From NCBI GenBank assembly GCA_022826755.1, contig JAJDUG010000060.1:1-64000 (forward strand): DNA of 64,000 nucleotides. Direction: 5' to 3'. The notes beneath the pieces were generated by a model. It was given only the letters and a program-made list of their open reading frames with translations, did no database searches and was not told the origin of the DNA. Positions 7,411 through 45,190 of the stretch are shown here, piece after piece (positions within the stretch are counted from its first letter, which is position 1; every line of letters begins with the position of its first letter). The translations under genes were made by a program, and so were the position numbers. The stretch comes from Acidobacteriota bacterium. Its GTDB lineage: Bacteria > Acidobacteriota > Terriglobia > Versatilivoradales > Versatilivoraceae.

Positions 7411-9117
7411 ATGAAACACAAACCGAGTCTCGCCATCCTGGTCCCGCTGTTCTTGCTTTTTTCGGCAACCCTTCCACCCCAGGGCGCCGGCGGGACTGCA
7501 GCCAACGAGAAGCCCATCGCCATGACCTTCGTGGACGTGGCCAAGCAGGCCGGCATCGATTTTCAGCACTTCAGCGGCAGCGCCGAGAAGACCTACATTC
7601 TGGAAGGAATGAGCGGGGGGGTTGCCTGGATCGACTACGACCGGGACGGCTGGCAGGATCTCTACCTGGTGAACGGCGGTCACTGGGAGGAGTTGCTAAG
7701 CGGGAAGCGGAGCGTCTCCAACGCTCTCTACCGCAATAACGGTGACGGCACCTTCACCGAAGTCACCCGAAAGGCCGGCGTCGGCGGCAACCGGTGGGGC
7801 ATGGGAGTGGCTGCGGCCGACTACGACAACGACGGCTGGCCGGATCTGTTCGTGTGCAACTACGGACCCAACACCCTCTACCGCAACAACGGCGACGGCA
7901 CCTTCACCGACGTTACCGACCGGGCCGGAGTCGGAGACGGGCGCTGGGCGGTCAGCGCCGCTTTCGGGGACTATGATGCCGATGGACACCTGGATCTCTA
8001 CGTGACCAACACCGTCACCTTCGACCATGAGAATCCGCCCCCCATGAACTGCCATTACCGTGGCATCACCGTGCAGTGCGGCCCCCTGGGCCTGCCCTGC
8101 GACGGCGACATCCTCTACCGCAACAACGGTCAGGGTGTATTCGAGGATGTGACCCGAAAGGCCGGAGTGGGGGGAGTGAAGCCCTCCTACGGGCTCGGTG
8201 TGGTGTGGACCGACTACGACAACGACAGGGACCTGGACCTCTACGTGGCCAACGATCAGATGGCCAACTTCATGTTCGAGAACCAGGGGGACGGATCCTT
8301 CACCGAGGTCGGACTGCTTTCCGGAGCCGGTTATTCCGACGACGGCATCGCCCAGGGCAGCATGGGAGTCGATTTCGGAGACTACGACCACGACGGGCTC
8401 TTGGACATCTTCATCACTCATTTTGCCGACGACTACAACACCCTCTACCGCAACCTGGGCGCCGGGAACTTTCGGGATGTCAGCCACCTGGCCGAGGTAG
8501 CCTTCCCCAGTTGGTCCTACCTGGCCTGGGGAACCGGCTTCGTGGATTTCGACAACGACGGTTGGGAGGACCTCTTCATCGCCAACGGGCACCTGTTCCC
8601 CCAGGTGGACCGCTACGAGATGGGCCAGAGCTTCTACCAGCGCAGCCAGCTCTTTCGCAACCTGGGCAACGGCAGGTTCCACGAGGTCACGGCCGGGCTC
8701 GACCGGGTGAAGCTCTGGTCCAGCCGTGGAGCGGCCTTTGCCGACTATGACAACGACGGGGATATCGACGTGGCCGTCAGCAACCTGGATGGGAATCCCT
8801 GGCTGCTGCGCAACGATGGCGGCAGCCGGCAACGCTGGCTGAGCCTGCGCCTGGAGGGGGCCCCCAGCAATCGCAGCGCCGTGGGGGCGCGGGTGACGGC
8901 CCTGACCGAGACCGGGGTCCAGATCCGGGAGGTTCGGGGAGGGTCCAGCTACCAGTCGACTCATGATATGAGGGTGCACTTCGGTCTGGGCAAAGCCAAG
9001 AAGGTCAGGTCGTTGGAGGTGCGCTGGCCGAACGGCGGCGCGCAACGATTTACCGATGTCTCCGGCAACCGGAGATACCGGCTCAAGGAAGGAGGCCGTC
9101 TTGAGCGGGACAAGTAG
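7411..9117 (+). CDS. CRTAC1-family FG-GAP/ASPIC-UnbV protein, subtype a, copy 1
   Basis: This 568-residue exported protein has a signal peptide of about 26 residues, then a run of FG-GAP/VCBS blades. Each blade has an integrin-like calcium loop such as DYDNDGWPDLFVCN or DYDADGHLDLYVTN paired with LYRNNGDGTFTDVT. The C-terminal 110 or so residues (SNRSAVGARVTALT to HFGLGKAKKVRSLEVRWPNG) are the ASPIC/UnbV domain. The expected fold is a calcium-bound beta-propeller outside the cytoplasmic membrane; the function is unknown. The closest relative in the window is the gene at 43277, sharing FQHFSGS.EK.YILE.MSGG. A subtype-a TPR gene follows at 9229. Confidence 0.88.
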   Translation: MKHKPSLAILVPLFLLFSATLPPQGAGGTAANEKPIAMTFVDVAKQAGIDFQHFSGSAEKTYILEGMSGGVAWIDYDRDGWQDLYLVNGGHWEELLSGKRSVSNALYRNNGDGTFTEVTRKAGVGGNRWGMGVAAADYDNDGWPDLFVCNYGPNTLYRNNGDGTFTDVTDRAGVGDGRWAVSAAFGDYDADGHLDLYVTNTVTFDHENPPPMNCHYRGITVQCGPLGLPCDGDILYRNNGQGVFEDVTRKAGVGGVKPSYGLGVVWTDYDNDRDLDLYVANDQMANFMFENQGDGSFTEVGLLSGAGYSDDGIAQGSMGVDFGDYDHDGLLDIFITHFADDYNTLYRNLGAGNFRDVSHLAEVAFPSWSYLAWGTGFVDFDNDGWEDLFIANGHLFPQVDRYEMGQSFYQRSQLFRNLGNGRFHEVTAGLDRVKLWSSRGAAFADYDNDGDIDVAVSNLDGNPWLLRNDGGSRQRWLSLRLEGAPSNRSAVGARVTALTETGVQIREVRGGSSYQSTHDMRVHFGLGKAKKVRSLEVRWPNGGAQRFTDVSGNRRYRLKEGGRLERDK

Positions 9118-9149
9118 CGAGGTTGTGCCTCAGGCCGAATGGCCAATGG

Positions 9150-9192
9150 ATGGTTGATCGATGATTTATGATTGTTGATTGATGAGGGTTGA
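9150..9192. repeat. AT-rich simple repeat of TTGATTGATGA type
   Basis: Imperfect reiterations of TTGAT, GATGA and TTGATT fill this stretch between the CRTAC1 stop and the TPR gene. The composition contrasts sharply with the GC-rich flanks. It overlaps the region where a start and ribosome site for the following gene would be expected. Confidence 0.6.
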
Positions 9193-9228
9193 CCACTGAT
9201 TGTGTTTCGAATTCACTATCCACAAACC

Positions 9229-10335
9229 ATGTGTTTGCGACTCAAGGTGTCTATTCCGGATCCTGCTATCTCCCTCGACGACTTGCGGGGGTCCCCGCGG
9301 GCTCTGACCGAAAACTGCCGTCCGGAAGCCCGGGCAGCTGGTGGATGGCCCCGGAAACCCGCTGGTTCCACTGGCAAGCTGTCGGGCCGTGTGCTGGTGC
9401 TGTCCCTGCTTATTGGGGTCGTCTTCTCGATTCCCCGGCTGGGGGCGGAGTCCCGCCACTATCGGGAAGCCAGCGAGTGGTATGAGAAACGGCAGACTCT
9501 GATGGCCATGCTCTCGGCCCAGAAGGCCTTGGAGGAAGATCCGGAGAACGCCGACCATCTTCTTCTCTACGGGCGGATTCTGACCGACCTGAAACAGTTC
9601 AGCGAAGCCGAGGTTCAACTTCGCAAGGCTCTGGGATTGCGGCCGGACGACGCTGAATTCCACTACCGCCTGGCCGCCGTGCTGATACAGGAGAAGATGG
9701 AGTGGAAGGCCACGTTGGGACTGGACCGGCGGGACACCAGCACCCGAGTGGTGCGGGGAACCGAGCTGGAAGCCCTGAATTCCCTGGAAACGACCGTCAA
9801 GCTCGACCCCGGCCACTTCAGGGCGCGCCTCCATCTGGGCCGTGCCTATTACGACCGCAATCAGCACCTGAAGGCGCGGCGGCAATTCGAGGCGGTACTG
9901 GAAAAGGACCCCGACTACCCCTGGCTCCACTACCATCTGTCCATGCTCCATTCCAACCGAGGCGAGGTGCAGGCGGCCATCCGGGAGCTGGAAAAGGAAC
10001 TCGAGCTCCATCCAACGCACGCCCAGGCCCGGTTGGAGCTGGGGGAGTGGCTGGTCAAGACCGGCCGGTACGAAAGCGGGTTGACCCATCTTTCCCAGGT
10101 GAAGCAGGACGAGGTCCATCCGGTCGACCTGAACTACGCCATCGCCAAGGCCCACCGGGGCCTTGGGAATCCCGAACAGGCCCTGGCCCTGGCCCGGAAG
10201 TGCCTGGAGATGGACCCCGAGTTCTCCGACGCACACTATCTGCTGGGCCAGCTCTACCGGGAAACCGGGGAACCGGAGCTGTCCCGCCAGTCCATGCAGA
10301 CCTTCCAGAGGGTCAAGAAGAGCCCCACCCGCTGA
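9229..10335 (+). CDS. exported TPR protein, subtype a, copy 1
   Basis: About 368 residues with an internal hydrophobic segment (VLVLSLLIGVVFSIP) acting as signal or anchor, followed by eight or so tetratricopeptide repeats. The first mature motif, ESRHYREASEWYE, then LMAMLSAQKALEEDPENADHL, is shared with genes 39310, 45240 and 47617. Repeats with DAEFHYRLA, HFRARLHLGRAYYD and SDAHYLLGQLYRETG are typical A/B helices for protein-protein contacts. The start is unsure: ATG 9229 lacks a clear ribosome site, an upstream GTG at 9202 has none either, and a GTG near 9391 would give a shorter signal peptide. It follows CRTAC1 gene 7411 on the same strand, separated by a simple repeat. Confidence 0.82.
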   Translation: MCLRLKVSIPDPAISLDDLRGSPRALTENCRPEARAAGGWPRKPAGSTGKLSGRVLVLSLLIGVVFSIPRLGAESRHYREASEWYEKRQTLMAMLSAQKALEEDPENADHLLLYGRILTDLKQFSEAEVQLRKALGLRPDDAEFHYRLAAVLIQEKMEWKATLGLDRRDTSTRVVRGTELEALNSLETTVKLDPGHFRARLHLGRAYYDRNQHLKARRQFEAVLEKDPDYPWLHYHLSMLHSNRGEVQAAIRELEKELELHPTHAQARLELGEWLVKTGRYESGLTHLSQVKQDEVHPVDLNYAIAKAHRGLGNPEQALALARKCLEMDPEFSDAHYLLGQLYRETGEPELSRQSMQTFQRVKKSPTR

Positions 10336-10693: not shown

Positions 10694-10892
10694 GGTCTTT
10701 TCCGTTGATTAGAGTCTAGCACACCCTCTCAGAGACCCAACGTCTCCCCGCCCAAAAGAGAATCAGTCTTTCAGCGCCATCCCGGGAAGCGCGTTCTCCT
10801 GTGTTCTCCTGTTGACTTTCCCGCGCTCCTTGGCCAACATGGATTGGTTATCTGAAAATCGACTCTTTGAATGCGAATCGGGCGGGTGCCTC

Positions 10893-12497
10893 ATGAAACT
10901 GGCGAAATGGACGTGCTGGCTTGTTTGCGCAGCGCTGCTGTCACCGCTGGCGGTGATGGAGGCTCAGAAGAAGAAGGACAGGCAGCGGGAGCGGTCGTTG
11001 CGCCGGGAAACCCAGGACCGGTTTCTCAAGAAGTGGCTCAAGCAGGACGTCTCCTACATCATTACTTCCGACGAGAGAGATGCCTTCGACAGTCTGACCA
11101 ACGACGAGGAGCGCTACCAGTTCATCGAGCAGTTCTGGTTGAGACGGGATCCCAATCCGGACACCATGGTCAACGAGTTCCGGGACGAGCACTACCGGCG
11201 CATCGCCTACGCCAATGAGCGTTTCACTTCGGGCAAGATGGGCTGGAAGACCGATCGCGGGCGCATGTACATCATGTATGGTCCCCCGGATCAGATCGAG
11301 ACCCACCACGGGGGTGGCACCTACTACCGGCCCTACTGGGAGGGGGGAGGAAAGACCAGCACCCATCCCTTCATCACCTGGCGATACCGTTACCTGGACG
11401 GGATAGATCTGGGACAGGAAGTCATCATCGAATTCGTGGATCGCACTTTTACCGGCGAATACCGCATTGCGCTCGATCCCTTCGAGAAGGACGCCCTCAA
11501 GAACACGCCGGTGGCCGACCTGACCGAGGACCAGAGAATGGGGCGGGGGGACGACATCAGCCGCCATACCCGTTATCCGTCGGGGCTGTTCTATTCGGAC
11601 TTCCGAATGGGCCAGATGCTCCGGCTGAGACAGGTGGCGGCTCTCAACCGGGCTCCCAAGATCCGCTTCAAGGACCTGGAAACGGTGGTGGACACCAAGC
11701 TCACCTACAACACCTTTCCCTTCGACTACCGGACCGACTTCATCAAGATCACCGAGGACACCATCCTGACCCCCATCACGGTGGTCATGAAGAACAGCGA
11801 CATGACCTTCAAGGACGTGGAGGGCGTCAAGAAGGCCGAGGTGAACGTCTTCGGCAGGATCACCACCATCACCGGCCGCTCGGTCCAGGTTTTCGAGGAG
11901 GTCGTCCGGCAGATCGCGCCCGACGCTCTCTTCAAGAGCACCCTGGAGAAGCGTTCCCTCTACCAGACCCGCATCCCCCTGAGATCGGGCCTCTACAAGC
12001 TGGAACTGGTGCTCAAGGATCTCAACAGCGGCAACCTGGGCACCGTCTACCACAGCATCCGGGTGCCGAAGTTTCCCGAGGACGAGCTGGCCACCAGCAG
12101 CATCATCCTGGCCGATCAACTGGAGCGGCTGCCCAGAAAGCAGGTGGGTTCGGGCCAGTTCGTGATCGGAAGCTCCAAGGTGCTGCCCAGCGTCGAGGAG
12201 TCATTCGGCAGAGAACGGCCCATGGGGGTCTATTTTCAGGTGTACAACCTGGCCAGGGACGAGCAGACCCAACAGCCCTCGGCCACCATCGAATACGTTC
12301 TCAAGAAGGGCGGGAGGGAAATCGGCAGGGCCCTCGAGTCCAACGACAAGCTGGCCGGAGCGGCTCAGCAGATGACCCTGCAGAAGCTGGTGGCCCTGGA
12401 CGAGCTGGAACCCGGTCAATACAGCCTGGTGGTTCAGGTCACCGACAACGTCGCCAACCGGTCGGTCGCCCCCGAGGCCAAATTCGTGGTTCGGTAA
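10893..12497 (+). CDS. GWxTD-domain exported protein, copy 1
   Basis: The start is set at ATG 10893 because it gives a clean signal peptide (KLAKWTCWLVCAALLSPLAVMEA). The 534-residue protein has the GWxTD domain: FLKKWLKQDVSYIIT, the FIEQFWLRRDPNPDT motif, then GWKTDRGRMYIMYGPPDQIE around residues 117-134. The C-terminal 140 residues, from FPEDELATSS on, form a predicted beta-sandwich ending in LEPGQYSLVV. GWxTD proteins are frequent in Acidobacteriota and Bacteroidota envelopes, and their biochemical role is not known. Copy 2 lies at 48769. The nearby TonB-type receptor gene suggests a surface function, by context only. Confidence 0.87.
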   Translation: MKLAKWTCWLVCAALLSPLAVMEAQKKKDRQRERSLRRETQDRFLKKWLKQDVSYIITSDERDAFDSLTNDEERYQFIEQFWLRRDPNPDTMVNEFRDEHYRRIAYANERFTSGKMGWKTDRGRMYIMYGPPDQIETHHGGGTYYRPYWEGGGKTSTHPFITWRYRYLDGIDLGQEVIIEFVDRTFTGEYRIALDPFEKDALKNTPVADLTEDQRMGRGDDISRHTRYPSGLFYSDFRMGQMLRLRQVAALNRAPKIRFKDLETVVDTKLTYNTFPFDYRTDFIKITEDTILTPITVVMKNSDMTFKDVEGVKKAEVNVFGRITTITGRSVQVFEEVVRQIAPDALFKSTLEKRSLYQTRIPLRSGLYKLELVLKDLNSGNLGTVYHSIRVPKFPEDELATSSIILADQLERLPRKQVGSGQFVIGSSKVLPSVEESFGRERPMGVYFQVYNLARDEQTQQPSATIEYVLKKGGREIGRALESNDKLAGAAQQMTLQKLVALDELEPGQYSLVVQVTDNVANRSVAPEAKFVVR

Positions 12498-12934: not shown

Positions 12935-15900
12935 ATGCAACGCTTTCTAACAGTGGCTGGATTGGCCGTCGTTCTGGCCCTTGCACTGTCCTATACGCCT
13001 GCGCTGGCCCAGGAGTACACCGGCATGCACGGAAACGTCGAGGACGAGACCGGCGCCAGGGTGACCCAGGTCGAGATTACGGCGACCGAGGAAACCACGG
13101 GGATTACCCGCTCGACCATAAGCAACGAGGTGGGCATCTACGAGCTGCGCGGCCTGCCGCCTGGGACCTACACGCTCGGGGCCGAGCTGGCCGGCTTCAA
13201 GGCCTATACCAACAGCGGCGTCATCATCTATGCCGGACGTCCCCGGCGCGTCGACATCATGCTGCAGGTGGGCGATATCCAGGACACCATCACGGTTTCC
13301 GAGGAAGGCGCCGTCATCGAGACGGACAAGTCCAGCATCACCTACACCTTGCCCTACAAGGAAGTCGAGGCCTTCCGGATTGCCGCCAGCCTGATCTACA
13401 CGGTGGGGAACAACCCGGGCGCCGAGTCCAGGAGCCAGGTGCACGGGGCCTTCGCCAACAACACCACCTCGCTGCAGGACGGCGTGGCCACCAATGCCTA
13501 CGGCACCTTCCGGGCGCCTCAGGAGCTGGTCCAGGAGATCAACCAGGTCTCCCTGAACGCCCCGGCCGAATACAAGACCGCCACCACCATCAACGGGGTG
13601 GGCCGAGGCGGCACCAACCAGTTCCACGGCGAGATCTGGATGCAGTTGGACCACCCCCGGCTGCGGGCCCTGACCGTGGGCCAGACGCGCCATCCTCCCG
13701 CCAAGCCGGGTGTCCGCTGGAACTACATGGCCTCGGGGCCCATCTACATCCCCAAGGTCTACGACGGGCGAGACAGGACCTTCTTCCATTTCTACGTTCA
13801 GCCCAACAGGAGCGACCAGAAGGCTCCCATCCGGAACTACGTCTACCCCACGGCGGCCATTCGCGGCGGGGACCTGACCGAGGTGGTGCAGCAGCACTTG
13901 GGAGGGAATCCCGTCATCAATCCCTTTACGGGCGAGCCTTTCGCCAACAACATCATTCCCGCCGATTTGATCAGCCCGGCGGCGAGGGGGGCATTGAATT
14001 ACGCTCCCATGCCCAATGCTTCCAGCCCCTTGGGCAGCCTGGTCGACAACACCCATGGGTTCCAGTTCGGCAGCAACGTGGAGAAGGACTGGCACGTGCG
14101 CTTCGACCATGCCATCACCGACTCCAACACCATCTCCTTCAACCACTACGGCTATAACCGGGTCCTGGACGAAGGCAACACCATTTCGCTTTCGACCTGG
14201 TTCGGCGACAACGCCACCCGCATGTGGAGCATCCAGGATTCCCACATGTTCTCCCCCACGGTGATCAACGAGTTCACCTTCGGGACCAACGACCAGGGCT
14301 ACGACCAGAAGGGCGCCACTACCGTCGGCAACACCCTGCTCAGGGAGTTCGGCATCGACCTGGGCGGTCGCACCTCGCCCGAGGGACCCGGATGCCCCCA
14401 GATCTACACGGGACTGTGGGGGTTCCAGCCGGGCGCCCTGTCGGGTTCCTTCTCGGCCACCGAGCTCACCTTCCCCTTCCTGGGACGCTGCGGCGCCGGC
14501 GGTGACAGGAGCGATCCCAAGGTCTGGGTGATGAAGGACAGCGTCTCCGTCAACAAGGGCACCCACCTCATCAAGTTCGGGATCGAGGCCAACTGGGAGC
14601 GGCCCTTCGGGTCGGTCAACAGTGCAGAGGCCTGGGGCGTGTATCGCTTCACCGGCCACTACAGCGGCAGCGACATTGCCGACTTCCTGCTCGGAATCCC
14701 CCGCGAGACGTCGATCGCGACGTCCCGGGCTCCCGTTCACGCCCGCGGCTTCGACTTCGGGTTCTTCGCCCAGGACGACTGGAAGGTGACCCCGCGTCTG
14801 ACCATGACCTACGGCGCCCGCATCCAGCACTTCGGGGCTCCCACGGACGCCAACGGCCTCTTCTACAACTTCGACTTCGACAACCTTCGGGTGGTGGTTC
14901 CCGACCGGGCGTTCCACCACGTGGTGCCGGTGTGGCCGCAAGGGGCGATTCCGGTGGTGAAGGCCAGCGATGCCGGCTATCCCCAGAGCCTGGTCAACTT
15001 CACTACGGCGCACATCTCTCCGCGCTTCGGCTTGGCCTATCGCATCAATGACTTCACCGTGATCCGGGCCGGCTACGGCATCTACCACGTGCCCTTCGCC
15101 ATCGCCGGGGCAGGCTTTAGTGGCCTCGGGCGGGCCGGCTGGCTGGGAGGCCGCGAGGGCGGACCCTTCGCCGGATCGGAGACGTTCGGGCCCAACGTGA
15201 TTACCGACGGCGTGCCGCAGTTGACATTCAACAAACCCTTCCTGCCCGCGGGCAGCGGCGCCACCTCGAAGCAGGGCGTGCGGGGGATCCCCCTCAACAG
15301 CCGCAAGGACGCCTGGGCCTACGACCAGCAGTGGAACCTGACCCTGGAGAACGACCTGGGCGACGGTTGGGCCTCGCGGATTTCCTACGTGGCCTCCAAG
15401 GGCACCAGTTGGCCCTATCGGAGCAACCTGCAGACTCCCACCCCCAGCACCATTCCCTTCGACGAGCGGACCGACAAGTTCCCCTGGGGCCCGAACTTCT
15501 CCTTCGTGGATCGGCACGACCTGGGAGGGACCGGCAGCTTCCACAGCCTGGAAGTGGAAGCCACCCGCCAGTTCAGCCGGGGCATCTACCTGCGGGCCTG
15601 GTACGAGTGGAAGAAGAACCTGGCCGACGTCATCCCGGGACTGTTTTCCTCCACCATCGGCTTCGAGGCCGAAGATCCGCTGGACCGCCAGCGCGACAAG
15701 GGCATCCAGAACGGAATCCGCCGGCAGCGCTGGCACGTGGGCGGGGTCTGGGATCTCCCGGTGGGCCAGGGGAGGCAGTACGCCGCCAACATCGGCGGCA
15801 TTCTCAACACCCTGATCGGCGATTGGACGGCCGCCTTCAAGTTCACCGGCGGCTCGGGAACGGCCTTCACCCCCTCCTACTCCGGTTCGGATCCCTCCAA

Positions 15901-16276
15901 CACCGGACGCTCCAGCGGCCGGCCGGACCAGTTGTGCAATCCCAACGGCTTCGGCGAAACGCCGGGCATCGGCTGGAACAAGTCCTGCTTCAAGGTTCCC
16001 GACCCGGGGATTGGCCGCTACGGCAGCGCCAGCCGGGGGATGCTGATTGCGCCGCGTGACTGGGGCACCGACCTCAACGTGTTCAAGCGGTTCAACCTGA
16101 CCCAGTACGAGAACGGACCCTACTTCAACTTCGAGACCTACATCTCCAATCTCCTGAACCACCGCAACGCCTCGGGTCCCTCCTCGACCAACATCACGGC
16201 TGCCAACTTCGGACTCTTCCAACCCAGCGGGTGGGAAGCGCGCCGCATCGTGTTCCGCCTGCGTCTCGGCTTCTAG
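12935..16276 (+). CDS. Oar-like TonB-dependent outer-membrane receptor
   Basis: This 1113-residue protein has a signal peptide ending near ALAQ (residue 26). A carboxypeptidase-regulatory-like (CNA-B type) beta domain follows, about residues 30-110 (GNVEDETGARVTQVEITATE, GIYELRGLPPGTYTLGAELAGF). A plug-like region (ITVSEEGAVIETDKSS, VNGVGRGGTNQFHGE-type motif) follows, then a long barrel region ending in a terminal Phe, as in BAM-inserted proteins. This is the acidobacterial Oar/TonB receptor architecture used for uptake or adhesion; the ligand is unknown. It has its own promoter candidate, a strong ribosome site (GAGGAGG) and an intrinsic terminator, so it is probably monocistronic and well expressed. 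Confidence 0.88.
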   Translation: MQRFLTVAGLAVVLALALSYTPALAQEYTGMHGNVEDETGARVTQVEITATEETTGITRSTISNEVGIYELRGLPPGTYTLGAELAGFKAYTNSGVIIYAGRPRRVDIMLQVGDIQDTITVSEEGAVIETDKSSITYTLPYKEVEAFRIAASLIYTVGNNPGAESRSQVHGAFANNTTSLQDGVATNAYGTFRAPQELVQEINQVSLNAPAEYKTATTINGVGRGGTNQFHGEIWMQLDHPRLRALTVGQTRHPPAKPGVRWNYMASGPIYIPKVYDGRDRTFFHFYVQPNRSDQKAPIRNYVYPTAAIRGGDLTEVVQQHLGGNPVINPFTGEPFANNIIPADLISPAARGALNYAPMPNASSPLGSLVDNTHGFQFGSNVEKDWHVRFDHAITDSNTISFNHYGYNRVLDEGNTISLSTWFGDNATRMWSIQDSHMFSPTVINEFTFGTNDQGYDQKGATTVGNTLLREFGIDLGGRTSPEGPGCPQIYTGLWGFQPGALSGSFSATELTFPFLGRCGAGGDRSDPKVWVMKDSVSVNKGTHLIKFGIEANWERPFGSVNSAEAWGVYRFTGHYSGSDIADFLLGIPRETSIATSRAPVHARGFDFGFFAQDDWKVTPRLTMTYGARIQHFGAPTDANGLFYNFDFDNLRVVVPDRAFHHVVPVWPQGAIPVVKASDAGYPQSLVNFTTAHISPRFGLAYRINDFTVIRAGYGIYHVPFAIAGAGFSGLGRAGWLGGREGGPFAGSETFGPNVITDGVPQLTFNKPFLPAGSGATSKQGVRGIPLNSRKDAWAYDQQWNLTLENDLGDGWASRISYVASKGTSWPYRSNLQTPTPSTIPFDERTDKFPWGPNFSFVDRHDLGGTGSFHSLEVEATRQFSRGIYLRAWYEWKKNLADVIPGLFSSTIGFEAEDPLDRQRDKGIQNGIRRQRWHVGGVWDLPVGQGRQYAANIGGILNTLIGDWTAAFKFTGGSGTAFTPSYSGSDPSNTGRSSGRPDQLCNPNGFGETPGIGWNKSCFKVPDPGIGRYGSASRGMLIAPRDWGTDLNVFKRFNLTQYENGPYFNFETYISNLLNHRNASGPSSTNITAANFGLFQPSGWEARRIVFRLRLGF

Positions 16277-16599: not shown

Positions 16600-17766
16600 A
16601 TGCGCCTTGCATTCACGCCGCCGACAGCTTCGAAACCCCCCTTCAACACGACTCGCATCCTTTCGGTTCTTCTCATGCTGACGCTCGGCCTCCCGCTGTT
16701 CTCGCGTGCGGATGCCTATCAGGAAGCGTTGGCAAGTTACCGGTCCGGGCGCTACCTGGAGGCGCTGGTGGCCGTTCAGAAAGCCCTGAGCCAGGATGAA
16801 GGCGACGCCTCCTACCACCTGCTGCATGCCAAGGTGTTGGCGGAGCTGCGCCAGTACGGCGACGCCGAAAAGAGCCTGAAGCGGGCCACCGAACTGCGTC
16901 CCCAATGGGTGGAGCCTTTCTACGAGTTGGGGATGCTCCAGTTCAGGCGCGAGGAATTCCGGGAGGCGGCCACCACGCTGGCCAAGGGAGTCGAACTCGC
17001 ACCCGATTCGGTCAAGACCCGCTTTCTTCTGGGCGTCAGCCATCTGCAGGTCAACCTGGACCATGCGGCCATGAAGCAGTTCAAGGCCGTGGAGGCATCC
17101 GATCCGCGTTACCCCGCCGTTCACCACAGCATCGGAAGGGTTTACTTTCGGCAGGGCAGGGACGCCGAGGCCATTGAGCACTTCAGAGCGGAGTTGGCGC
17201 ACAACCCCGATCATCACGCGGCCAGGTTTCTATTGGGCAAGGTGTTGGTAAGGACGGGCCAGGCGGAAGAGGCGGTGGTGCAACTGCTGAGACTTCAGGG
17301 AGAAGACGTGGGTCAGGGGCAACTGCACTACTACCTGGGTGCGGCCTACCGCCGCCAGGGGAAACGGGCAGAAGCCCTGGAAGCGCTTCAGAGGAGCATC
17401 GCCGTCAATCCCAACTCCTACGAATCCCGCTACCTGCTGGCGCGTCTCTACCTGGAAACCGGCCAGATCGACTTGGCACGGAAGCAAATGGCGGCCTTCG
17501 AGCAATTACGGCAGAGAGAAGGGAGGGGCCGGTCGGTGGACGCCTTGAAGCAGGAAAGGCGGGACCCGGAATTCAGTGAAGCGGACATCGATGGCGATGG
17601 CCGGTTGACGCCGGCCGAATTCGAGCGCTTCGTCAATACCCGAGTCAAGGGATTTGCAAGGCATGGCGAGTTCTTCCAGGGGCTGGATGGCAACGGAGAC
17701 GGCCGGCTGGACCGCCGGGAGTTCGCCCGCCGCTTTGAACTTCTGCGAACATTTCAGAGCCAATAG
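16600..17766 (+). CDS. exported TPR protein with C-terminal EF-hand pair, subtype b
   Basis: The 388-residue protein has a signal peptide (ILSVLLMLTLGLPLFSRA), then about eight tetratricopeptide repeats from DAYQEALASYRSGRYLEALV to YLLARLYLETGQIDLARKQM. The tail, about residues 325-388, adds two EF-hand loops: DIDGDGRLTPAE and DGNGDGRLDRRE, each with the D-x-D/N-x-D-G spacing that binds calcium. The paralogue at 33946 matches across the repeats but ends at REGRGR, without the EF-hands. A GAGGAAAG ribosome site supports the start. CRTAC1 subtype-b gene 18301 follows on the same strand, as in the 33946/34860 pair. Confidence 0.87.
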   Translation: MRLAFTPPTASKPPFNTTRILSVLLMLTLGLPLFSRADAYQEALASYRSGRYLEALVAVQKALSQDEGDASYHLLHAKVLAELRQYGDAEKSLKRATELRPQWVEPFYELGMLQFRREEFREAATTLAKGVELAPDSVKTRFLLGVSHLQVNLDHAAMKQFKAVEASDPRYPAVHHSIGRVYFRQGRDAEAIEHFRAELAHNPDHHAARFLLGKVLVRTGQAEEAVVQLLRLQGEDVGQGQLHYYLGAAYRRQGKRAEALEALQRSIAVNPNSYESRYLLARLYLETGQIDLARKQMAAFEQLRQREGRGRSVDALKQERRDPEFSEADIDGDGRLTPAEFERFVNTRVKGFARHGEFFQGLDGNGDGRLDRREFARRFELLRTFQSQ

Positions 17767-17976
17767 AGATCCCGTTGGCGTTGGTCTGCTGGAGGTGGAC
17801 TTGTGACCATGGCGATGCGAACAGGGAGATCTCGGGTGAAGTGTCAAGTAAGTGGCGCCCCAGTCCCCGACGACGGGGCGGATCATCAGATGGTGAAGAA
17901 ACAGGTTTGTTTGACAACAAGTTGCAGGTTCCGGGAGCAGGCAAGCGCCCTGTGAGGTGGTTGCACTCTATTTTTT

Positions 17977-18126
17977 ATGAACATGGATGCACAGGATTAA
18001 CAGGATTAACGGCACGAGAGGTTCCTGCACCGGAAGCCGGCTGGGGCGATGATCCGGTGCGGGCTTGTCGATGCTCAGGATTGCGAGCCGGTTGTTTCCT
18101 GAAAAATCCTGTGCATCGATGTTCAT
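17977..18126. repeat. 150-base fold-back element
   Basis: The left arm ATGAACATGGATGCACAGGA (from 17977) is matched in inverse by the right arm ending at 18126 (ATCCTGTGCATCGATGTTCAT), with one or two mismatches over about 28 bases. The left arm continues with ACAGGATTAACAGGATTAAC, a directly repeated motif. The centre of about 90 bases is GC-rich and has smaller inverted pieces. It encodes nothing recognisable. Confidence 0.65.
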
Positions 18127-18171
18127 AATCCGTTTCGTGGCGGTGTGGGCCGTTGACGCAGATCCGTCCCG

Positions 18172-31712: not shown

Positions 31713-31790
31713 TTTTTTTGACGATTGGGGTTTTCCCTCGAATGATCCGCCCCTGATTGAACTGCATACTGAACATGGATCAAATGGGAC

Positions 31791-31857
31791 TACCCGGGAG
31801 CGCGGGCGTCCCGCCCGCATCCTCTTCCCTGTGTTGCCGCTCGGTTTCCCTGCGATC
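31791..31857. repeat. one-ended GCGGGCG palindromic repeat
   Basis: ACCCGGGAGC plus the GCGGGCG-TCC-CGCCCGC hairpin is followed by sequence ending TCGGTTTCCCTGCGAT. The same follow-on sequence occurs after the arms at 25 and 44976, which defines a second interior type of this repeat family. No closing arm is seen. Confidence 0.75.
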
Positions 31858-31955
31858 TTGTCAAGCGTGCAGCCCTGCTGAGCCACCATGTCTCCCCACC
31901 GCTTCTGTTGGGTCCGGCCGGAACAGTGTGCCATAATCGCCATAGAGGAAGTTCA

Positions 31956-34863: not shown

Positions 34864-36560
34864 ACGTGTTTCGCAAAGCCATATCGGTTTGGTTCCTGTT
34901 GTGTCCGGTGCTTGCGGCCGGTGGGTTTCTTCGGGCGGATTCGGTGCCCCGGTTCACCAACGTCAGCGGCTCCAGCGGCATCGATTTCCTCCATATCAAC
35001 GGTCCCGAGAAGACCAAGCCCTACCTGTTCGAGGCCAAGGGGGGCGGGGCCGGCTTCTTCGACTACGACAAGGATGGCCGGCTGGACCTGATCATGGTTC
35101 AAGGGTCCACCCTGGAACGATTCCGCAAGGGAGACAACCCGCACGGCGCGCTCTATCGGAACCAGGGAGACGGGACCTTCAAGGAGGTGACCCGGGAGGC
35201 GGGTCTGACTCGACCAGCCTGGGGGATGGGAGTCACCCTGGGGGATTACGACAACGACGGCTTTGTGGACGTGTACTTGAACAACTTGCAGGCCAACATC
35301 CTGTACAGGAACCGGGGGGACGGCACCTTCCAGGACGTCACCGCCCGGGCCGGTGTGGGAGACGCCGGGTTGAGCTCCTCTTCCGCCTTTGGCGACTACG
35401 ACCTGGACGGAGACCTGGACCTCTACGTCTGCAACTATGTTCGCTACAACTTCGACAGTCTGCCCCCTCCCGGCTCAAAGCCTATCTGCAGCTACCGGGG
35501 AGCTCCGGCCTTTTGCGGTCCAAAGGGGCTGGAGGGGGGTGCCAATCGCTTCTACCGCAACAACGGAGACGGAACCTTTTCGGAGGTCACCGAGGCGGCG
35601 GGATTGAACGTGAAGAACCACTATTACTCCCTGGGGGTGGTGTGGGCCGATCTGGACAGCGACGGGGATCCGGATCTCTACGTGGCCAACGACAGCACGC
35701 CCAATCAGCTCTTTGTCAACCAGGGAGACGGAACCTTCAAGGAAACGGGTTTCCTGAGCGGCCTGGCGACCGACGCCGACGGGCGTTTCCAGGCAGGCAT
35801 GGGGGTGGATGCGGCCGATTACGACAACGACGGGCGCCTGGACCTGTTCGTGACCAACTTCGCCGATGATTACAGCACGCTCTACCACAATCGGGGGCAG
35901 CTCCTGTTCGAGGACGTGAGCCAACAGGCCCGGCTGAGCCAGCCGGAATGGATGCTGGTCGGCTGGGGGGCCGGATTCTACGACTTGAACCATGACGGCT
36001 GGAAGGACATCTTCCACTCCAACGGCCACGTGTACGCCCTGGTGCTGACGGCCGGCTGGTCCGACCGCTATTACCAGCCCTCTTCCTTCTACCTGAACCG
36101 AAAAGACGGAACCTTCAGGGATGTGAGGAAGTTGGCCGGACCCGATCTGCAGAAGGAGTTGCTGGGCCGGGGCATGGCCTTCGGAGATCTGGACAACGAC
36201 GGCGACATCGACTTCATTATCGGCAACCTCAACGGCACTCCTCAGCTCTTCCGGCACGAGGGCGCCGGTCCCAACCATTGGGTCATGTTCCGCGCCAGGG
36301 GGACGCGGAGCAACCGTGACGGCATCGGCGCCCGCATCACGGTGGTCACCGGTGAACTCCGACAGGCCTGGGAGATCAAGCGAACCGTAGGTATTTTTTC
36401 GGCCAGCGACCCCAGGGCCCATTTCGGCCTGGGGGCCGCCGAGCGAATCGATGAAGTGCAGGTGAAGTGGCCCAGCGGGGTGGTGCAGGAATTCCAAGAC
36501 CTCAAAGCCGACCTGCACTATCTGATTGACGAAGAGAGCGGTCTGGAGAAGGAGTTCTGA
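34860..36560 (+). CDS. CRTAC1-family FG-GAP/ASPIC-UnbV protein, subtype b, copy 2
   Basis: This 566-residue protein has a signal peptide (VWFLLCPVLAAGGFLRA). FG-GAP blades follow with calcium loops DYDKDGRLDLIMVQ, DYDNDGFVDVYLNN, DYDLDGDLDLYVCN and DLDNDGDIDFIIGN, then an ASPIC/UnbV domain (SNRDGIGARITVVTGELRQ to VKWPSGVVQEF). A Cys pair in CSYRGAPAFCG probably forms a disulphide, matched by CHYRGTTIPCG in gene 18301. The two proteins share most positions outside the signal peptide. It overlaps the TPR gene by four bases and stops directly before a CTTCGTG-type repeat. Confidence 0.9.
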   Translation: MNVFRKAISVWFLLCPVLAAGGFLRADSVPRFTNVSGSSGIDFLHINGPEKTKPYLFEAKGGGAGFFDYDKDGRLDLIMVQGSTLERFRKGDNPHGALYRNQGDGTFKEVTREAGLTRPAWGMGVTLGDYDNDGFVDVYLNNLQANILYRNRGDGTFQDVTARAGVGDAGLSSSSAFGDYDLDGDLDLYVCNYVRYNFDSLPPPGSKPICSYRGAPAFCGPKGLEGGANRFYRNNGDGTFSEVTEAAGLNVKNHYYSLGVVWADLDSDGDPDLYVANDSTPNQLFVNQGDGTFKETGFLSGLATDADGRFQAGMGVDAADYDNDGRLDLFVTNFADDYSTLYHNRGQLLFEDVSQQARLSQPEWMLVGWGAGFYDLNHDGWKDIFHSNGHVYALVLTAGWSDRYYQPSSFYLNRKDGTFRDVRKLAGPDLQKELLGRGMAFGDLDNDGDIDFIIGNLNGTPQLFRHEGAGPNHWVMFRARGTRSNRDGIGARITVVTGELRQAWEIKRTVGIFSASDPRAHFGLGAAERIDEVQVKWPSGVVQEFQDLKADLHYLIDEESGLEKEF

Positions 36561-39309: not shown

Positions 39310-40353
39310 TCAACGGGCAAAGCGCTCGATCCGCTCCTTCAACTCCCGGTAGCTTTCCAGCGCCTGCCGGGCCTGTTCGGACTGTCCGCTATCCCTGTAG
39401 AGTCTGGCCAGCAGCCGGTGAGCTACCGGATTGTCGGGCAGGAGCCGGATGGACTGCCGGGCGGCCGCAATGGCCTTGTCCAACTGTCCCAGCCTGCGAT
39501 AGACCTTGGCCAGACCGAAGTGGAGATCGGGGAGCGAGACCGTTTGGCTCTCCGGGGAAACGGCAGTCAGGTGGGAGAGAGCCGGCTTGGGTTTTCCGAG
39601 CTGCAGCAGCAGGTCCGCCAGTTCCAGGCGGGCCTGGCCGGCGTCAGGGTGATCTTCCACCTCCTGCTGTAGGGCTTGCAGGGCCTCCCGAAACTTCCCG
39701 GCATCCAGGTAAACGGCGGCCAGGTGGTAGTGGGCCCAGGCGTAGCGGGGGTCCCTGGCCACCACTGCCTCGAACTGCCGGAGCGCCTTGCTCCTCATGT
39801 TCTGCTGATGGTAGGTCCGCCCCAGGTGCATCCTGGCCTTGAGGTGATCGGGGTCCAGTTCCAGGGCCTTTTCCAGGAGCCGGATGCCCTCTTGTACCGG
39901 CTCGCTGGTGGTATTGCGGGCGCCCATCCCCATGGGATCGGTCGGGTCCTCGGTCTCGCTTCGCTGCTGGAGAATGAGAGCCGCCACGCCGTAGTGGAAG
40001 TCGGCTTTGGAGGGGTCCAGAGCCAGGGCCTTGCGCAGTTCGGGTTCGGCGTCGCTGTACTGATTGAGCTGCAGCAGCGTCATGCCGTACAAGTGCCTGT
40101 AGGCAGCGTTCTCGCCGTCCTGCTGCACGGCTTTCTGAGCCGCCAGCATGGCCAGCAGATACTCCTTGCGCTCATAGCGCTCTTTGGCCTCCAGGTAGTC
40201 CGCCGATTGAGCCTGGAGCAGGACTGCCCCGTGGAGGAAAAGGGCAAGCGCCGGGAGGGCCAACAGCCGGCACAGCTCCCTCCAGGGCAGGCATCTCGCC
40301 CGCTCTACCGGCGGGATCCATCTTCTATTTCCGGCTTTGGGCGGCGTAAGCAT
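39310..40353 (-). CDS. exported TPR protein, subtype a, copy 2
   Basis: The 347-residue product has a hydrophobic signal segment (LLALPALALFLHGAVLLQAQ), then tetratricopeptide repeats beginning SADYLEAKERYERKEYLLAM. Shared subtype-a landmarks are LLAMLAAQKAVQQDGENA, LYGMTLLQLNQYSDAEPELR, and a 20-residue variable insert before LLEKALELDPDHLKARMHLG. ATG 40353 has an AGGA ribosome site. It is the last gene of a leftward FecR / 7-heme cytochrome / TPR operon, 40 bases after the cytochrome stop. Its repeats may hold the cytochrome in a complex; this is inferred from linkage. Confidence 0.86.
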   Translation of the reverse strand: MLTPPKAGNRRWIPPVERARCLPWRELCRLLALPALALFLHGAVLLQAQSADYLEAKERYERKEYLLAMLAAQKAVQQDGENAAYRHLYGMTLLQLNQYSDAEPELRKALALDPSKADFHYGVAALILQQRSETEDPTDPMGMGARNTTSEPVQEGIRLLEKALELDPDHLKARMHLGRTYHQQNMRSKALRQFEAVVARDPRYAWAHYHLAAVYLDAGKFREALQALQQEVEDHPDAGQARLELADLLLQLGKPKPALSHLTAVSPESQTVSLPDLHFGLAKVYRRLGQLDKAIAAARQSIRLLPDNPVAHRLLARLYRDSGQSEQARQALESYRELKERIERFAR

Positions 40354-40393: not shown

Positions 40394-41533
40394 CTATTCG
40401 GCGACGATACGAATCCAGTGGTCGGCGAACTCGGAGTGGGTCATGAAGCCCCCTTCAAAGGGCATGTGACAGGAGCTGCACCGGCTGGCGGCCACCTTGC
40501 ATCCCGCGGCCATGGCGTGGTCGCCTCCGTGGCAGGACAGGCACTTGGAATCGTAGGAGGCGGCCGTTTGCACCAGGCTCTCGTGCGGGTCGTGACAGGT
40601 CGTGCACTTCAACTGGTCCCGGCTTTCGCTGTAGCACCGGCTCAACACCAGGCGCTGGGCCGGAAAACGGGACACCTCCTTGTCGACCATGTACCTGGCA
40701 AGCGCCTGCAGGTCGTTGCCTCCCGGCGGCGCTCCGTGGCAGGCGCCGCAGAAATAGAGTTGCTCGATGGCCGGCATCCTTCCGGGGTTTCCGATGGTTG
40801 AGGCGGCATCGGCCTCGCCTTGGGTCATGGCCTGGATATGTTCCTGCCCCGGTCCGTGACAGCGTTCGCAGTGGACTCCGGCCGAGGCGGGGTCCATTCG
40901 CTCAGGCGGCAGGTCGGCGTCCCGGGTGGTGTGGCAGGCAAAGCAGTGTTCTCGTTGAGGCGGACTCATCCAGTCGGCCAGGGCATCGTAGGCGTTGTCG
41001 ACCGGGTCTTCCAATCCGGTGGTGATGTCCAGCCCCCCGGTGGACTGGTACCAGCTCACCCGGCTCTGGCCGTAAGCGCCGGCATCGGTCATGCCGATGA
41101 AGGTGATCCCTTTCCTCCCGGCCCCCATGCCCCATAGCAGGTGCATGCGGTCGGCTTCTCCGTTCCTGTCAGCCACCAGGTCGAGAGTGAACTCGGAGTC
41201 GGAGGACCGCTCGATTCGATAGGCCACCTGGTTGCGCGGGTCGGAAAACTCCAGGGGCACCGATTCCATCAACCGGGAAAGGGAGCGCACTCGTCTCAGC
41301 GTCAACGGATGGCCGCTCTCCAACTGGACCTCGGCGATCTCCCGGTGGCACTGCACGCATTGGCTCGACCCCACGTAGCCCGAATCGTCGGCGGCTAGTG
41401 CTCGGGGCGTTCCCGCCGAAAGGAAGACAGTCAAGACCGCAACCGAGAAGAGACAGGAACCGATGTTCCTGTTTATGGCTGCCGATTCCCCGGCTGGAGG
41501 GCGGCGCCCCGGCAGAGGCATGGTGATGGGCAT
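40394..41533 (-). CDS. 7-heme c-type cytochrome, copy 1
   Basis: The 379-residue protein has a signal peptide (SCLFSVAVLTVFLSAGTPRALA) and seven CXXCH motifs, first Cys at about 59, 197, 222, 262, 310, 331 and 352. The long haem-free stretch between the first and second motifs contains LLWGMGAGRKGITFIG and YGQSRVSWYQ, conserved in the paralogue at 46275 and probably a folded insert near the first haem. The C-terminal FMTHSEFADHWIR is also shared. The start is set at ATG 41533, which overlaps the FecR stop as TGATG and has a GGGAGGTGG ribosome site. Its electron donor and acceptor are unknown. Confidence 0.9.
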   Translation of the reverse strand: MPITMPLPGRRPPAGESAAINRNIGSCLFSVAVLTVFLSAGTPRALAADDSGYVGSSQCVQCHREIAEVQLESGHPLTLRRVRSLSRLMESVPLEFSDPRNQVAYRIERSSDSEFTLDLVADRNGEADRMHLLWGMGAGRKGITFIGMTDAGAYGQSRVSWYQSTGGLDITTGLEDPVDNAYDALADWMSPPQREHCFACHTTRDADLPPERMDPASAGVHCERCHGPGQEHIQAMTQGEADAASTIGNPGRMPAIEQLYFCGACHGAPPGGNDLQALARYMVDKEVSRFPAQRLVLSRCYSESRDQLKCTTCHDPHESLVQTAASYDSKCLSCHGGDHAMAAGCKVAASRCSSCHMPFEGGFMTHSEFADHWIRIVAE

Positions 41534-43017
41534 CAGTTGTTCCACCTCCCAATGCCCATTTGCGCGCGATTCGCAGCATTGTCCTGCAACCCGCGATCAT
41601 GGTGGTCTTGTCCCACTGACTCCTGCCGTCGACCGTTGCGATTTTTCCCGAGGTCCCTGGACTTGATCCACAAGGCGTTGCCGTAGCGAAATCCATAGGG
41701 GGATTTGGGCTTGGAATCGAACGGTACGAAGGTAAACCATTGGGACTTGTTGCCGAGTACCCATCCTCCCCGGTTCTGGTAGCCGAAGCTGGGGTAGGCC
41801 GACCGGCGCACTCTGGCCGAGAGGCGTGAATTGGACTGGGCCAACTGTTGGGCCCGTTTTTTGCTCCATTGGTTGAGGTCGTCCTTCTTCCTCAGCTTTC
41901 CCGAGTGAAGCCTGGAGGTTGCGGCTTCGACCTGGTAGCTTCTGCCGGCTTCAAGCCGTCGCCTCTTCCGGTTATTCCCCATCCATTCCAGGGCCCCCTT
42001 GTAGACCGAGACCCGCAAGCGCGGCTCCAGGCCGAGGCGATACAGCCCTTTGGCGGCCACTTGAAAATCGCCGGCGGGAGTCGATATGGACAGAGAGTGG
42101 ATGGTGGGATTGAAGGCGGCGGATTCCAGGATGATTTCACCCTCTAGAATCTCGAACTTCATCGTGGCGTAACCCGTCTTGGTGAATCGGACCAGGCTGC
42201 TTTCGGCGAGCCGCAAGTAGCTGCCCGGATTCAATAGCAGTTCCGCGCGACCGTTCTCCAGGGTTCTCAGCTCCCCTCCGGCGTTCAACTTGTGACCGGC
42301 GGTCAGCAGCCAGCGGTTGCTGCCCGCCAACGAATATTGTGGCGGTCTTCCCCAGAAGCTGTTCAACAAAAAGGCGGAGCGCACTTGCCCCCACGGGTCC
42401 AAGTGATCTCGACTGTGTTTGCCCAGCTCGGCCACCGCCGGACTGCGTTCGACGGCGTCGCCGAGGACGTAGCGCTTGCCGTCAGTCAGGCTGAGCGATT
42501 GCCCGTCAGGCTTCAGCCAGTTCAACTTGCCGGCGTGAACGGCAACCTTCAATGAAGACGGTTCCTTGACTTGAATTCGATAAAATCCGTTCTTGAGAAG
42601 CTCCAGATCTCCGGCAGGGGTCGATAGCTTGAAGGCGTGGCGCCGGCTCTTGAAGCGCCTGGAATCGACCACGACCGTTCCTTCCCAAACACGGAAGTGC
42701 ATCTTTCGGTATGCCGTGTCGAGGACATCCAGTCGGGCCTGGTCAGCCAGGCGCAGGAAACCGCCGGGATGCAGCATGATTTCGATACGGTCGCCGCGGC
42801 GGGTCCGGACAATGTCCCCGGGCTGCAATCGGTGGCCGATTGCAATTTCAGCGGGCGCCCCTTGCCCGCCGGCAAGCAGTAGCTGTTTTCCCTTGACATA
42901 CCGGACGGTGCCGGCTTGAAGGTGGGAGACGTGAGCGGCGGGATCCTTGCCCGGAGCCCGGGAGGGTCCGGCAAGAAGCAGGAACCCGGCCGCCGAAGTC
43001 AGGATGATCCCTTTCAT
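41533..43017 (-). CDS. exported double FecR-domain protein, copy 2
   Basis: The 494-residue product has a signal peptide (GIILTSAAGFLLLAGPSRA) and two FecR-like beta domains: VRTRRGDRIEIMLHPGGFLR with KLSTPAGDLELLKNGFYRI, then LENGRAELLLNPGSYLRL with SISTPAGDFQVAAKGLYRL. The tail FGYQNRGGWVLGNKSQWFTF and SPYGFRYGNALW matches gene 20155 closely. Absence of a cytoplasmic domain and of a sigma factor argues against classical FecR signalling. The last codon overlaps the start of the 7-heme cytochrome gene, so the two are translationally coupled. It is divergent from CRTAC1 gene 43277, with 260 bases between starts. Confidence 0.85.
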   Translation of the reverse strand: MKGIILTSAAGFLLLAGPSRAPGKDPAAHVSHLQAGTVRYVKGKQLLLAGGQGAPAEIAIGHRLQPGDIVRTRRGDRIEIMLHPGGFLRLADQARLDVLDTAYRKMHFRVWEGTVVVDSRRFKSRRHAFKLSTPAGDLELLKNGFYRIQVKEPSSLKVAVHAGKLNWLKPDGQSLSLTDGKRYVLGDAVERSPAVAELGKHSRDHLDPWGQVRSAFLLNSFWGRPPQYSLAGSNRWLLTAGHKLNAGGELRTLENGRAELLLNPGSYLRLAESSLVRFTKTGYATMKFEILEGEIILESAAFNPTIHSLSISTPAGDFQVAAKGLYRLGLEPRLRVSVYKGALEWMGNNRKRRRLEAGRSYQVEAATSRLHSGKLRKKDDLNQWSKKRAQQLAQSNSRLSARVRRSAYPSFGYQNRGGWVLGNKSQWFTFVPFDSKPKSPYGFRYGNALWIKSRDLGKNRNGRRQESVGQDHHDRGLQDNAANRAQMGIGRWNN

Positions 43018-43276
43018 GGCTTGGCCTCTCCGCCGGCGGAAGTTTGAGCCCAAGATCGGCAGTGCAACGGGAGGATGGCGCGACCCATCCATCACTGGCC
43101 CTATCTTAGTGATCCTGCTTCTTCAATTCCAGTCTCATGTAGGATCAAAAGACTGCCGCCCCGGGATCGGTCGCGATCCGTGCTAAAATCAACCCAGAGT
43201 AGGCGATGATAACGTCGCTTTCCGCGTAGTGACCTCTTCCGGCGACTCCTGCAGGCAGTTTGCTCCAATCCAAGAG

Positions 43277-44974
43277 ATGACCAAGCCCATAGCACTGAGC
43301 CTGATTGCCTGCCTGGCCGCATTGGCCGGGACATCCGCCAATGATTTGTCCCGCTCGGACAAGTCGTTGCCTGCCTCGCCCTCGCTGGTCTTTGAGGACG
43401 TGGCTGCCGACGCGGGCCTGGATTTCCAGCACTTCAGCGGCAGCCCCGAGAAGCAGTACATTCTGGAGAGCATGAGCGGAGGCGTGGCCTGGATCGACTT
43501 CGACCGGGACGGTTGGATGGACCTCTACCTGGTCAACGGGGGGCACTGGGAGGAGCTGGTTCAAGGAAAGCGCACGGTTTCCAATGCGCTCTACCGGAAC
43601 AATGGCGACGGCACCTTTGCCAACGTGACCGAAAAGGCCGGAGTGGGGAATCGGCACTGGGGGATGGGAGTGGCCGCCGGAGACTACGACAACGACGGCT
43701 GGGTGGACCTGTTCGTCTGCAACTACGGCCCCAACACCCTCTACCGGAACAACGGCGACGGCACTTTCAAGGAGGTAACCGGCACGGCCGGGGTGGGGGA
43801 CGGACGGTGGGCGGTGAGCGCATCCTTCGGGGACTACGACGCCGACGGCTGGTTGGATCTCTACGTCACCAACACGGTCCGGTTCGACTTCAAGAATCCC
43901 GATCCCATGGAGTGCCACTACCGGGGGATTACGGTGCAGTGCGGACCCCTGGGGATGGTCGGCGATTCCGATATCCTCTACCGCAACAACGGAGATGGCA
44001 CCTTTCTTGACGTGAGCGAGAAGGCCGGCGTCTCGGATGTGACTCCGTCCTATGGACTGGGGGCCATCTGGACCGACTACGACAACGACGAAGACCTCGA
44101 TCTCTACGTGGCCAACGATCAAATGGCCAATTTTCTCTTTCGCAACCAGGGAGACGGCACCTTCGAGGAGACCGGGCTCTTTGCCGGAGCCGCTTTTAGC
44201 GATGACGGCACGGCCCAGGGCAGCATGGGAGTGGATTTCGGAGACTATGACCGCGACGGCCTGCTGGACATCTACATCACCCATTTTTCGGACGACTACA
44301 ATACGCTTTTCCGCAATCTGGGCCGGGGCAGGTTTAGAGACATGACCCGGGGGGCCGGACTCACGTTCAGCAGTTGGCCCATGGTGGGTTGGGGCACCGG
44401 GTTCGTGGACCTGGACCATGACGGCTGGGAAGACATCTTCGCCGCCAACGGCCACGTGTTTCCCCAGGTGGACGGATACAAGATCGGCACCAGCTTCCAT
44501 CAGCGCAGCCAGGTCTTTCGCAACCTGGGCGACGGGAAATTCCAGGAGGTGTCGGCCGGGCTCGACAAGCTCAAGTCCCGGTCCAGCCGGGGGGTGGCCT
44601 TTGCCGACTACGACAACGACGGCGATATGGACGTGGCCGTCAACAACCTGGACGGGGTCCCCTGGCTGTTGAGGAATCAGAAGGGGAGCGAGTCGGGCAA
44701 TTGGCTCCTGCTTTCCCTGGAGGGGACCCGAACCAACCGCAGCGCCATCGGGGCCCGGGTCACCCTCGAGACCGCGGAGGGGAGGCAGATGCGGGAGGTT
44801 CGGGGTGGTTCCAGCTATGAGTCCACCCACGACTTCCGGGTCCACTTCGGCCTGGGCCAGCTCGAGACCGTCAAGAAACTGACCGTCCGTTGGACCGATG
44901 GAACCACCCGGAGCTTCGAGAACCTGGCGGTCAACCGGACCTACCGGCTCAAGGAAGGCGGCGAGCTCGAATAG
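43277..44974 (+). CDS. CRTAC1-family FG-GAP/ASPIC-UnbV protein, subtype a, copy 2
   Basis: The 565-residue protein has a signal peptide (PIALSLIACLAALAGTSA), FG-GAP blades with loops such as DFDRDGWMDLYLVN, DYDNDGWVDLFVCN and DYDRDGLLDIYITH, and a C-terminal ASPIC/UnbV domain (TNRSAIGARVTLETAEGRQ to LTVRWTDG). It matches gene 7411 along its length, including the Cys pair CHYRGITVQCG and the MGVAA.DYDNDGW blade. ATG 43277 gives the best signal peptide. TPR gene 45240 follows after a repeat element, the same order as 7411/9229. It is probably a surface or periplasmic calcium-dependent propeller; its activity is not known. Confidence 0.88.
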   Translation: MTKPIALSLIACLAALAGTSANDLSRSDKSLPASPSLVFEDVAADAGLDFQHFSGSPEKQYILESMSGGVAWIDFDRDGWMDLYLVNGGHWEELVQGKRTVSNALYRNNGDGTFANVTEKAGVGNRHWGMGVAAGDYDNDGWVDLFVCNYGPNTLYRNNGDGTFKEVTGTAGVGDGRWAVSASFGDYDADGWLDLYVTNTVRFDFKNPDPMECHYRGITVQCGPLGMVGDSDILYRNNGDGTFLDVSEKAGVSDVTPSYGLGAIWTDYDNDEDLDLYVANDQMANFLFRNQGDGTFEETGLFAGAAFSDDGTAQGSMGVDFGDYDRDGLLDIYITHFSDDYNTLFRNLGRGRFRDMTRGAGLTFSSWPMVGWGTGFVDLDHDGWEDIFAANGHVFPQVDGYKIGTSFHQRSQVFRNLGDGKFQEVSAGLDKLKSRSSRGVAFADYDNDGDMDVAVNNLDGVPWLLRNQKGSESGNWLLLSLEGTRTNRSAIGARVTLETAEGRQMREVRGGSSYESTHDFRVHFGLGQLETVKKLTVRWTDGTTRSFENLAVNRTYRLKEGGELE

Positions 44975-44975
44975 G

Positions 44976-45190
44976 CCCCACCCGGGAGCGCGGGCGTCCC
45001 GCCCGCATGCTATCCCGTTGCGTGTCGCTCGGTTTCCCTGCGATACCGCTACCGGCCACCCTGTCGGCGGCAACCTCAACGGCCAAACCGAAGGAGACCC
45101 GGGGCGCGGTTCCGGGTCATCTCGAGTGGCGGAGAGGGCCAAGGCTGTGCCGGACTTTGTGCGGGCGGGACGCCCGCGCTCCCGGGGGGG
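44976..45190. repeat. 215-base element with inverted GCGGGCG termini, mosaic interior
   Basis: The element starts with CCCCACCCGGGAGC plus the GCGGGCG hairpin and ends with the inverted hairpin and GCTCCCGGGG. Its left interior matches the arms at 25 and 31791 (CCCGTTGCGTG, TCGGTTTCCCTGCGAT). Its right interior matches the other interior type (GGCCAAGGCTGTGCCGG), seen at 54139-54361. It begins two bases after the CRTAC1 stop. Confidence 0.8.

Follow-up and report, generated by a model that had tools for sequence, protein, structure and literature searches.

Conserved pairing of CRTAC1-type propeller genes with tetratricopeptide repeat genes in an Acidobacteriota genome and its relatives

A stretch of 64,000 nucleotides from a 4.6-Mb Acidobacteriota genome (contig JAJDUG010000060.1, positions 1 to 64,000; hereafter the window), whose relatives are placed in Terriglobia, Ca. 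Versatilivoradales, carries four linked gene pairs. Each pair encodes a CRTAC1-family protein and a tetratricopeptide repeat (TPR) protein, and two of the pairs are of subtype a and two of subtype b. The pairs are kept within the order, TPR genes are strongly enriched beside CRTAC1 genes outside it, and the two parts also occur fused in single genes. The explanation we favour, with a probability of about one half, is that the TPR protein is a dedicated partner which docks or assembles an exported Ca2+-type propeller at the cell envelope; the binding, the location, the ligand and the role are what we infer.

The two subtypes show opposite gene orders. The CRTAC1-a genes Ca1 (7411-9117) and Ca2 (43277-44974) are followed by the TPR-a genes Ta1 (9229-10335) and Ta2 (45240-46256), respectively, and the CRTAC1-b genes Cb1 (18301-20112) and Cb2 (34860-36560) are preceded by the TPR-b genes Tb1 (16600-17766) and Tb2 (33946-34863), all on the forward strand. 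Positions and orders were thus as the sequence-only reading had described them, including the ATGA overlap of one b pair, which was located at 34860-34863 between Tb2 and Cb2 (CC-ATGA-AC). The end that it had set for the whole arrangement, 45174, was too early: Ta2, the second of the TPR-a genes, comes after it and extends to 46256. Across relatives, Tb2 and Cb2 either overlap by ATGA or lie at small offsets. The long gaps within the pairs Tb1-Cb1 and Ca2-Ta2 contain repeats resembling miniature inverted-repeat transposable elements (MITEs), at 17975-18128 (24-nt inverted ends, about 40 genome copies) and at 44977-45190 (31-nt inverted ends, about 40 or more genome copies). In three congeners the Tb1-Cb1 gap is only about 43 nt, in contrast to the repeat-bearing gap of the window.

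The pairing was surveyed outside the order in 117 loci, a few of which overlap or share one genome. These loci are the best CRTAC1 matches and not a random sample, the gene calls were approximate (a simple amino-acid composition score combined with homology), and genes four or more places from CRTAC1 served as the background. An adjacent TPR gene was found for 57 of 101 CRTAC1 genes (one per locus) but for only 3 of 79 background genes. Counted over immediate neighbours, TPR genes made up 98/257 as against 18/258 in the background (odds ratio 8.2, p 3e-18), and 71 of these 98 were on the same strand as CRTAC1. The signal came mainly from Acidobacteriota; Gemmatimonadota, Poribacteria, Latescibacterota and Planctomycetota contributed one or a few cases each. 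Moreover, seven single open reading frames uniting CRTAC1 and TPR parts were found outside the window (L005, L007, L053, L062, L065 and L069; L083 in the same genome), and Pfam confirmed the fusions in L005 and L083. The possibility that the pairs are rare accidents of adjacency, raised by the sequence-only reading itself, does not agree with these counts and fusions or with the conservation of the pairs within the order. The open reading frame L005:1-3327 encodes FG-GAP, UnbV_ASPIC, AhpC/TSA and TPR domains, the AhpC/TSA domain lying between the CRTAC1 and TPR parts.

Within the order, every evaluable a- or b-type CRTAC1 copy has kept its TPR neighbour. The island extending from hemL to a VWFA gene is contained in one contig of G009 and in pieces in the genomes G006, G007, G008 and G011, with gene-by-gene identities in congeners of mostly 72-99%; parts of it also occur in G010, G004 and, in another genus, G001. 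G010, whose genome is a single contig, has an a1-like pair about 1.4 Mb away from the rest of the island.

The window proteins are true relatives of CRTAC1. All four (Ca1, Ca2, Cb1 and Cb2) matched FG-GAP_3 with 189-201 bits (Pfam cut-off 26.9) and UnbV_ASPIC with 72-84 bits (cut-off 23.4). Ca1 is 71% identical to Ca2 and 46-48% identical to the b forms. Each of the four contains seven putative Ca2+-loop motifs of the DxDxDxxxD type, one per predicted blade; in Ca1 these FG-GAP/DxDxDG blades are followed by the C-terminal UnbV_ASPIC domain. Export-type N-termini were recognized by eye on both the CRTAC1 and the TPR proteins. These features are in agreement with the earlier description of an exported, calcium-type propeller. 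The AlphaFold2 model of Ca2, a propeller with an ASPIC domain (pLDDT 92), matched mouse CRTAC1 (PDB 9etn) over residues 32-562 of the model, the C-terminal domain included (Z 43.4, 456 residues aligned, 25% identity). The fold is thus shared over the whole length, and 9etn was also the only PDB match by sequence; unlike the mouse protein, the window forms are bacterial and linked to a gene for an exported TPR protein. Cysteines C213 and C222 are nearly invariant among 38 relatives, which suggests that they form a disulphide. The next solved structures found by Foldseek after CRTAC1 include propeller lectins binding N-acetylglucosamine; these fungal lectins are weak fold matches.

TPR families scored above the Pfam cut-offs in Ta1, Tb1, Tb2 and Ta2, and the predicted fold of Tb2 consists of an N-terminal helix and a superhelix of eight TPRs (pLDDT 94). 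An EF-hand-like C-terminal tail, an EF-hand pair, is unique to Tb1; it is present in all seven of the seven species with Tb1, although its loop residues vary. Since Ta1 is only 40% identical to Ta2, compared with 32-35% to the b forms, TPR subtype a is loose by sequence, yet it is backed by the tree. A profile built from the four TPR proteins strongly matched exactly six genes of this genome (333-562 bits; the next one 105), and all six lie within the window. Two of them, Ta3 (39310-40353, reverse strand) and Ta4 (47617-48669, forward strand), are TPR-a genes which the sequence-only reading had overlooked. As neither of them adjoins a CRTAC1 gene, TPR-a is not invariably paired with CRTAC1; within the window, the pairing described earlier holds for Ta1 and Ta2 only. 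Ta3 lies beside the heptahaem cytochrome gene cyt7a also in congeners and in G001. In G010, Ca2 is directly followed by the Ta4 ortholog and this by GWxTD2. PilW, PrsT, MamA, BepA and LapB, TPR proteins with named roles in export or assembly, were rejected as identities of the window proteins, all scores being far below the NCBIfam equivalog cut-offs (at best 96 bits for MamA, cut-off 200, and 103 for PrsT, cut-off 312). The TPR superhelix is shared with the PilW, PrsT, MamA and BepA types, and the matches to them are weak and repeat-driven.

The matched subtypes had been taken to suggest co-evolving partners, with mirrored trees as the proposed check. The a/b, a1/a2 and b1/b2 splits are indeed parallel in the CRTAC1 and TPR trees, some forks being unresolved, and the patristic distances of 31 cognate pairs within the order were highly correlated (r 0.943; shuffling the partners within genomes gave a mean of 0.02). 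However, a consistent exchange of clade labels still yielded r of 0.93-0.94, and the tree-mirroring test therefore cannot distinguish partners. Tracking between CRTAC1 and TPR in six congeners was 0.58 for Ca1-Ta1, -0.41 for Ca2-Ta2, 0.89 for Cb1-Tb1 and 0.75 for Cb2-Tb2. Other genes of the island mostly equalled or surpassed the cognate TPR genes in this respect, Tb1 being the best for Cb1 by only 0.01. In the second b pair of G010, which is slightly discordant, Cb is closer to b2 and Tb closer to b1. Subtype matching among 98 CRTAC1-TPR pairs outside the order was nil overall (rho 0.02): a-type CRTAC1 was found beside an a-like TPR in four loci (L115, L002, L118 and L131), and b-type CRTAC1s did not lie beside b-like TPRs. 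The fixed subtype match described earlier thus stands for the four window pairs and for a-types in these four loci but not for b-types outside the order. Because of the relabelling result, the tracking in congeners and the loss of the b match outside the order, duplication of linked pairs followed by vertical descent is sufficient to explain the matched subtypes. We have rejected the mirrored trees as a proof of interaction, as they are near-equal under relabelling and the cognates do not exceed non-cognate linked genes, and the inference of co-evolution drawn from them was not upheld.

The locus contains four copies of a unit of two genes, and these copies belong to two old lineages. One gene of the unit encodes an exported, seven-bladed Ca2+-type propeller of the CRTAC1 family that carries an ASPIC/UnbV domain, the other an exported TPR protein with eight repeats. 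Binding between the two neighbours is most likely, and the TPR protein would dock or assemble the propeller at the cell envelope. There the propeller may serve as a module of the cell surface or the periplasm that is stabilised by Ca2+ and perhaps binds glycans. The TPR enrichment, the fusions, the kept and relocated pairs, the tight spacing, the predicted folds, the lectin-like matches and the EF-hand tail of Tb1 were counted in favour of such a dedicated partner. Several observations weigh against it. Outside the order, 44 of the 101 CRTAC1 genes have no adjacent TPR gene, partner TPRs in other orders are highly divergent, and TPR genes are plentiful in these genomes and adjoin many things. 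In the window itself, Ta3 and Ta4 have a cytochrome or GWxTD gene alongside instead of CRTAC1, and what points to a lectin is the fold match of a predicted model (query TM about 0.34-0.39). We rank the dedicated partner above the three alternatives, which are given here in decreasing order of probability. It is possible, although unlikely, that the TPR proteins are general periplasmic chaperones or scaffolds, with several exported clients, of which CRTAC1 would be just one besides multihaem cytochromes, GWxTD proteins and proteins of the TonB type. Such a function would fit Ta3 next to a heptahaem cytochrome gene, Ta4 next to GWxTD2, Tb2 right after an octahaem cytochrome gene, a TPR gene sandwiched between two Oar genes in G003 and the haem-TPR fusions that lie close to CRTAC1, both at L082 of the same genome and elsewhere; but TPR was the one class enriched beside CRTAC1 among those counted, and CRTAC1-TPR fusions free of cytochromes exist.

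Adjacency might also be incidental, if tandem and segmental duplication had carried neighbours along in an island with many genes for exported proteins. This would be consistent with the differing gene orders of a and b and with the absence of a subtype match for b-types beyond the order, and linkage accounts for the mirrored trees. We consider it improbable, as TPR genes are enriched beside divergent CRTAC1 genes in other families, and the fusions also argue against it, as does the pair that has been relocated in G010. A redox module, in which a multihaem cytochrome, the TPR protein and CRTAC1 would act jointly in envelope electron transfer, ranks last and seems quite improbable as well. It could explain why the order cyt8-Tb2-Cb2 is kept as far as another genus (g4), as well as the runs of heptahaem, TPR and CRTAC1 genes in L039 and L049, the single CRTAC1-AhpC/TSA-TPR fusion and the reported location of CRTAC1 genes beside hydrazine-synthase-like genes (PMC12758564). 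Multihaem genes were, however, not enriched overall next to CRTAC1 (21/485 against 8/258, p 0.55), and a general cytochrome-TPR-CRTAC1 unit was rejected on this ground. Similarly, no significant enrichment near CRTAC1 was found for TonB/Oar genes (29/485 against 9/258, p 0.16).

The unit may be longer in one branch. GWxTD genes lie at most two genes away from 6 of 21 high-scoring CRTAC1 genes compared with 2 of 144 others, and a series CRTAC1-TPR-GWxTD, seen in L115, L131 and the window, may therefore be a fuller unit in this branch. In the window, the genes for GWxTD-domain proteins are GWxTD1 (10812-12497), downstream of Ca1-Ta1, and GWxTD2 (48769-50382), downstream of Ta4, both on the forward strand. 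We suggest, tentatively, that a CRTAC1-type Ca2+ propeller and its cognate TPR scaffold form an exported system of two components that is widespread but undescribed. In Acidobacteriota and in some other phyla the two would be encoded side by side or as a fusion, and some families would have the longer GWxTD-containing form.

Duplicated ASPIC/UnbV genes have been listed for Ca. Solibacter usitatus (PMC3174227). Those paralogs carry the same domain, belong to the same phylum and are duplicated like those of the window, but they are described as duplicated single genes, and the word tetratricopeptide is absent from that text. The locus in which CRTAC1 genes are sited among hydrazine-synthase-like genes (PMC12758564) resembles the window in having a CRTAC1-family gene among genes for haem proteins; it differs in that TPR is not mentioned and the cytochromes are of another kind. 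Neither a description of a CRTAC1-TPR pair nor a function for the bacterial CRTAC1/ASPIC-UnbV forms was found in the literature searched, which left out most subscription journals, so that a prior description is possible. CRTAC1/ASPIC-UnbV proteins range from bacteria to mammals, and a genetic partner with statistical support and natural fusions is a first concrete handle on the bacterial forms. The negative co-divergence result and the missed TPR paralogs call for caution in reading mirrored trees in duplicated loci.

Other genes of the island code for multihaem proteins (5, 15, 8, 7 and 7 CXXCH motifs) and for two proteins with FecR domains; an Oar-like TonB-type barrel is encoded there too, and one gene is glycosidase-like. 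The octahaem c-type cytochrome gene cyt8 (31908-33872, forward) lies directly upstream of Tb2-Cb2, the heptahaem gene cyt7a (40394-41545, reverse) adjoins Ta3, which lies downstream of it, and the heptahaem gene cyt7b (46275-47459, reverse) is located between Ta2 and Ta4. The Oar-like outer-membrane beta-barrel gene (OMP_b-brl_4; 12935-16276, forward) is upstream of Tb1. A conserved run at 23931-33872 encodes a 5-haem protein, a small TPR protein, a 526-aa protein, a 15-haem cytochrome, a protein of about 400 aa and the 8-haem cytochrome; the 526-aa protein, beta-barrel-like by eye, and the protein of about 400 aa have no Pfam match, and the run could be a porin-cytochrome conduit. The two FecR-domain proteins are similar, each with a duplicated domain, and both are encoded on the reverse strand, at 20155-21750 (convergent with Cb1) and 41533-43095 (divergent from Ca2). 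No Rfam match to an RNA element and no tRNA was found in the window. The second MITE-like family, that of the Ca2-Ta2 gap (31-nt GC-rich inverted ends), is also represented by a fragment near 16-91, and a related core motif occurs at 4548-4906, 31796 and 54153-54332. A gene for a UvrA-like protein of 966 aa (54570-57470) adjoins the island.

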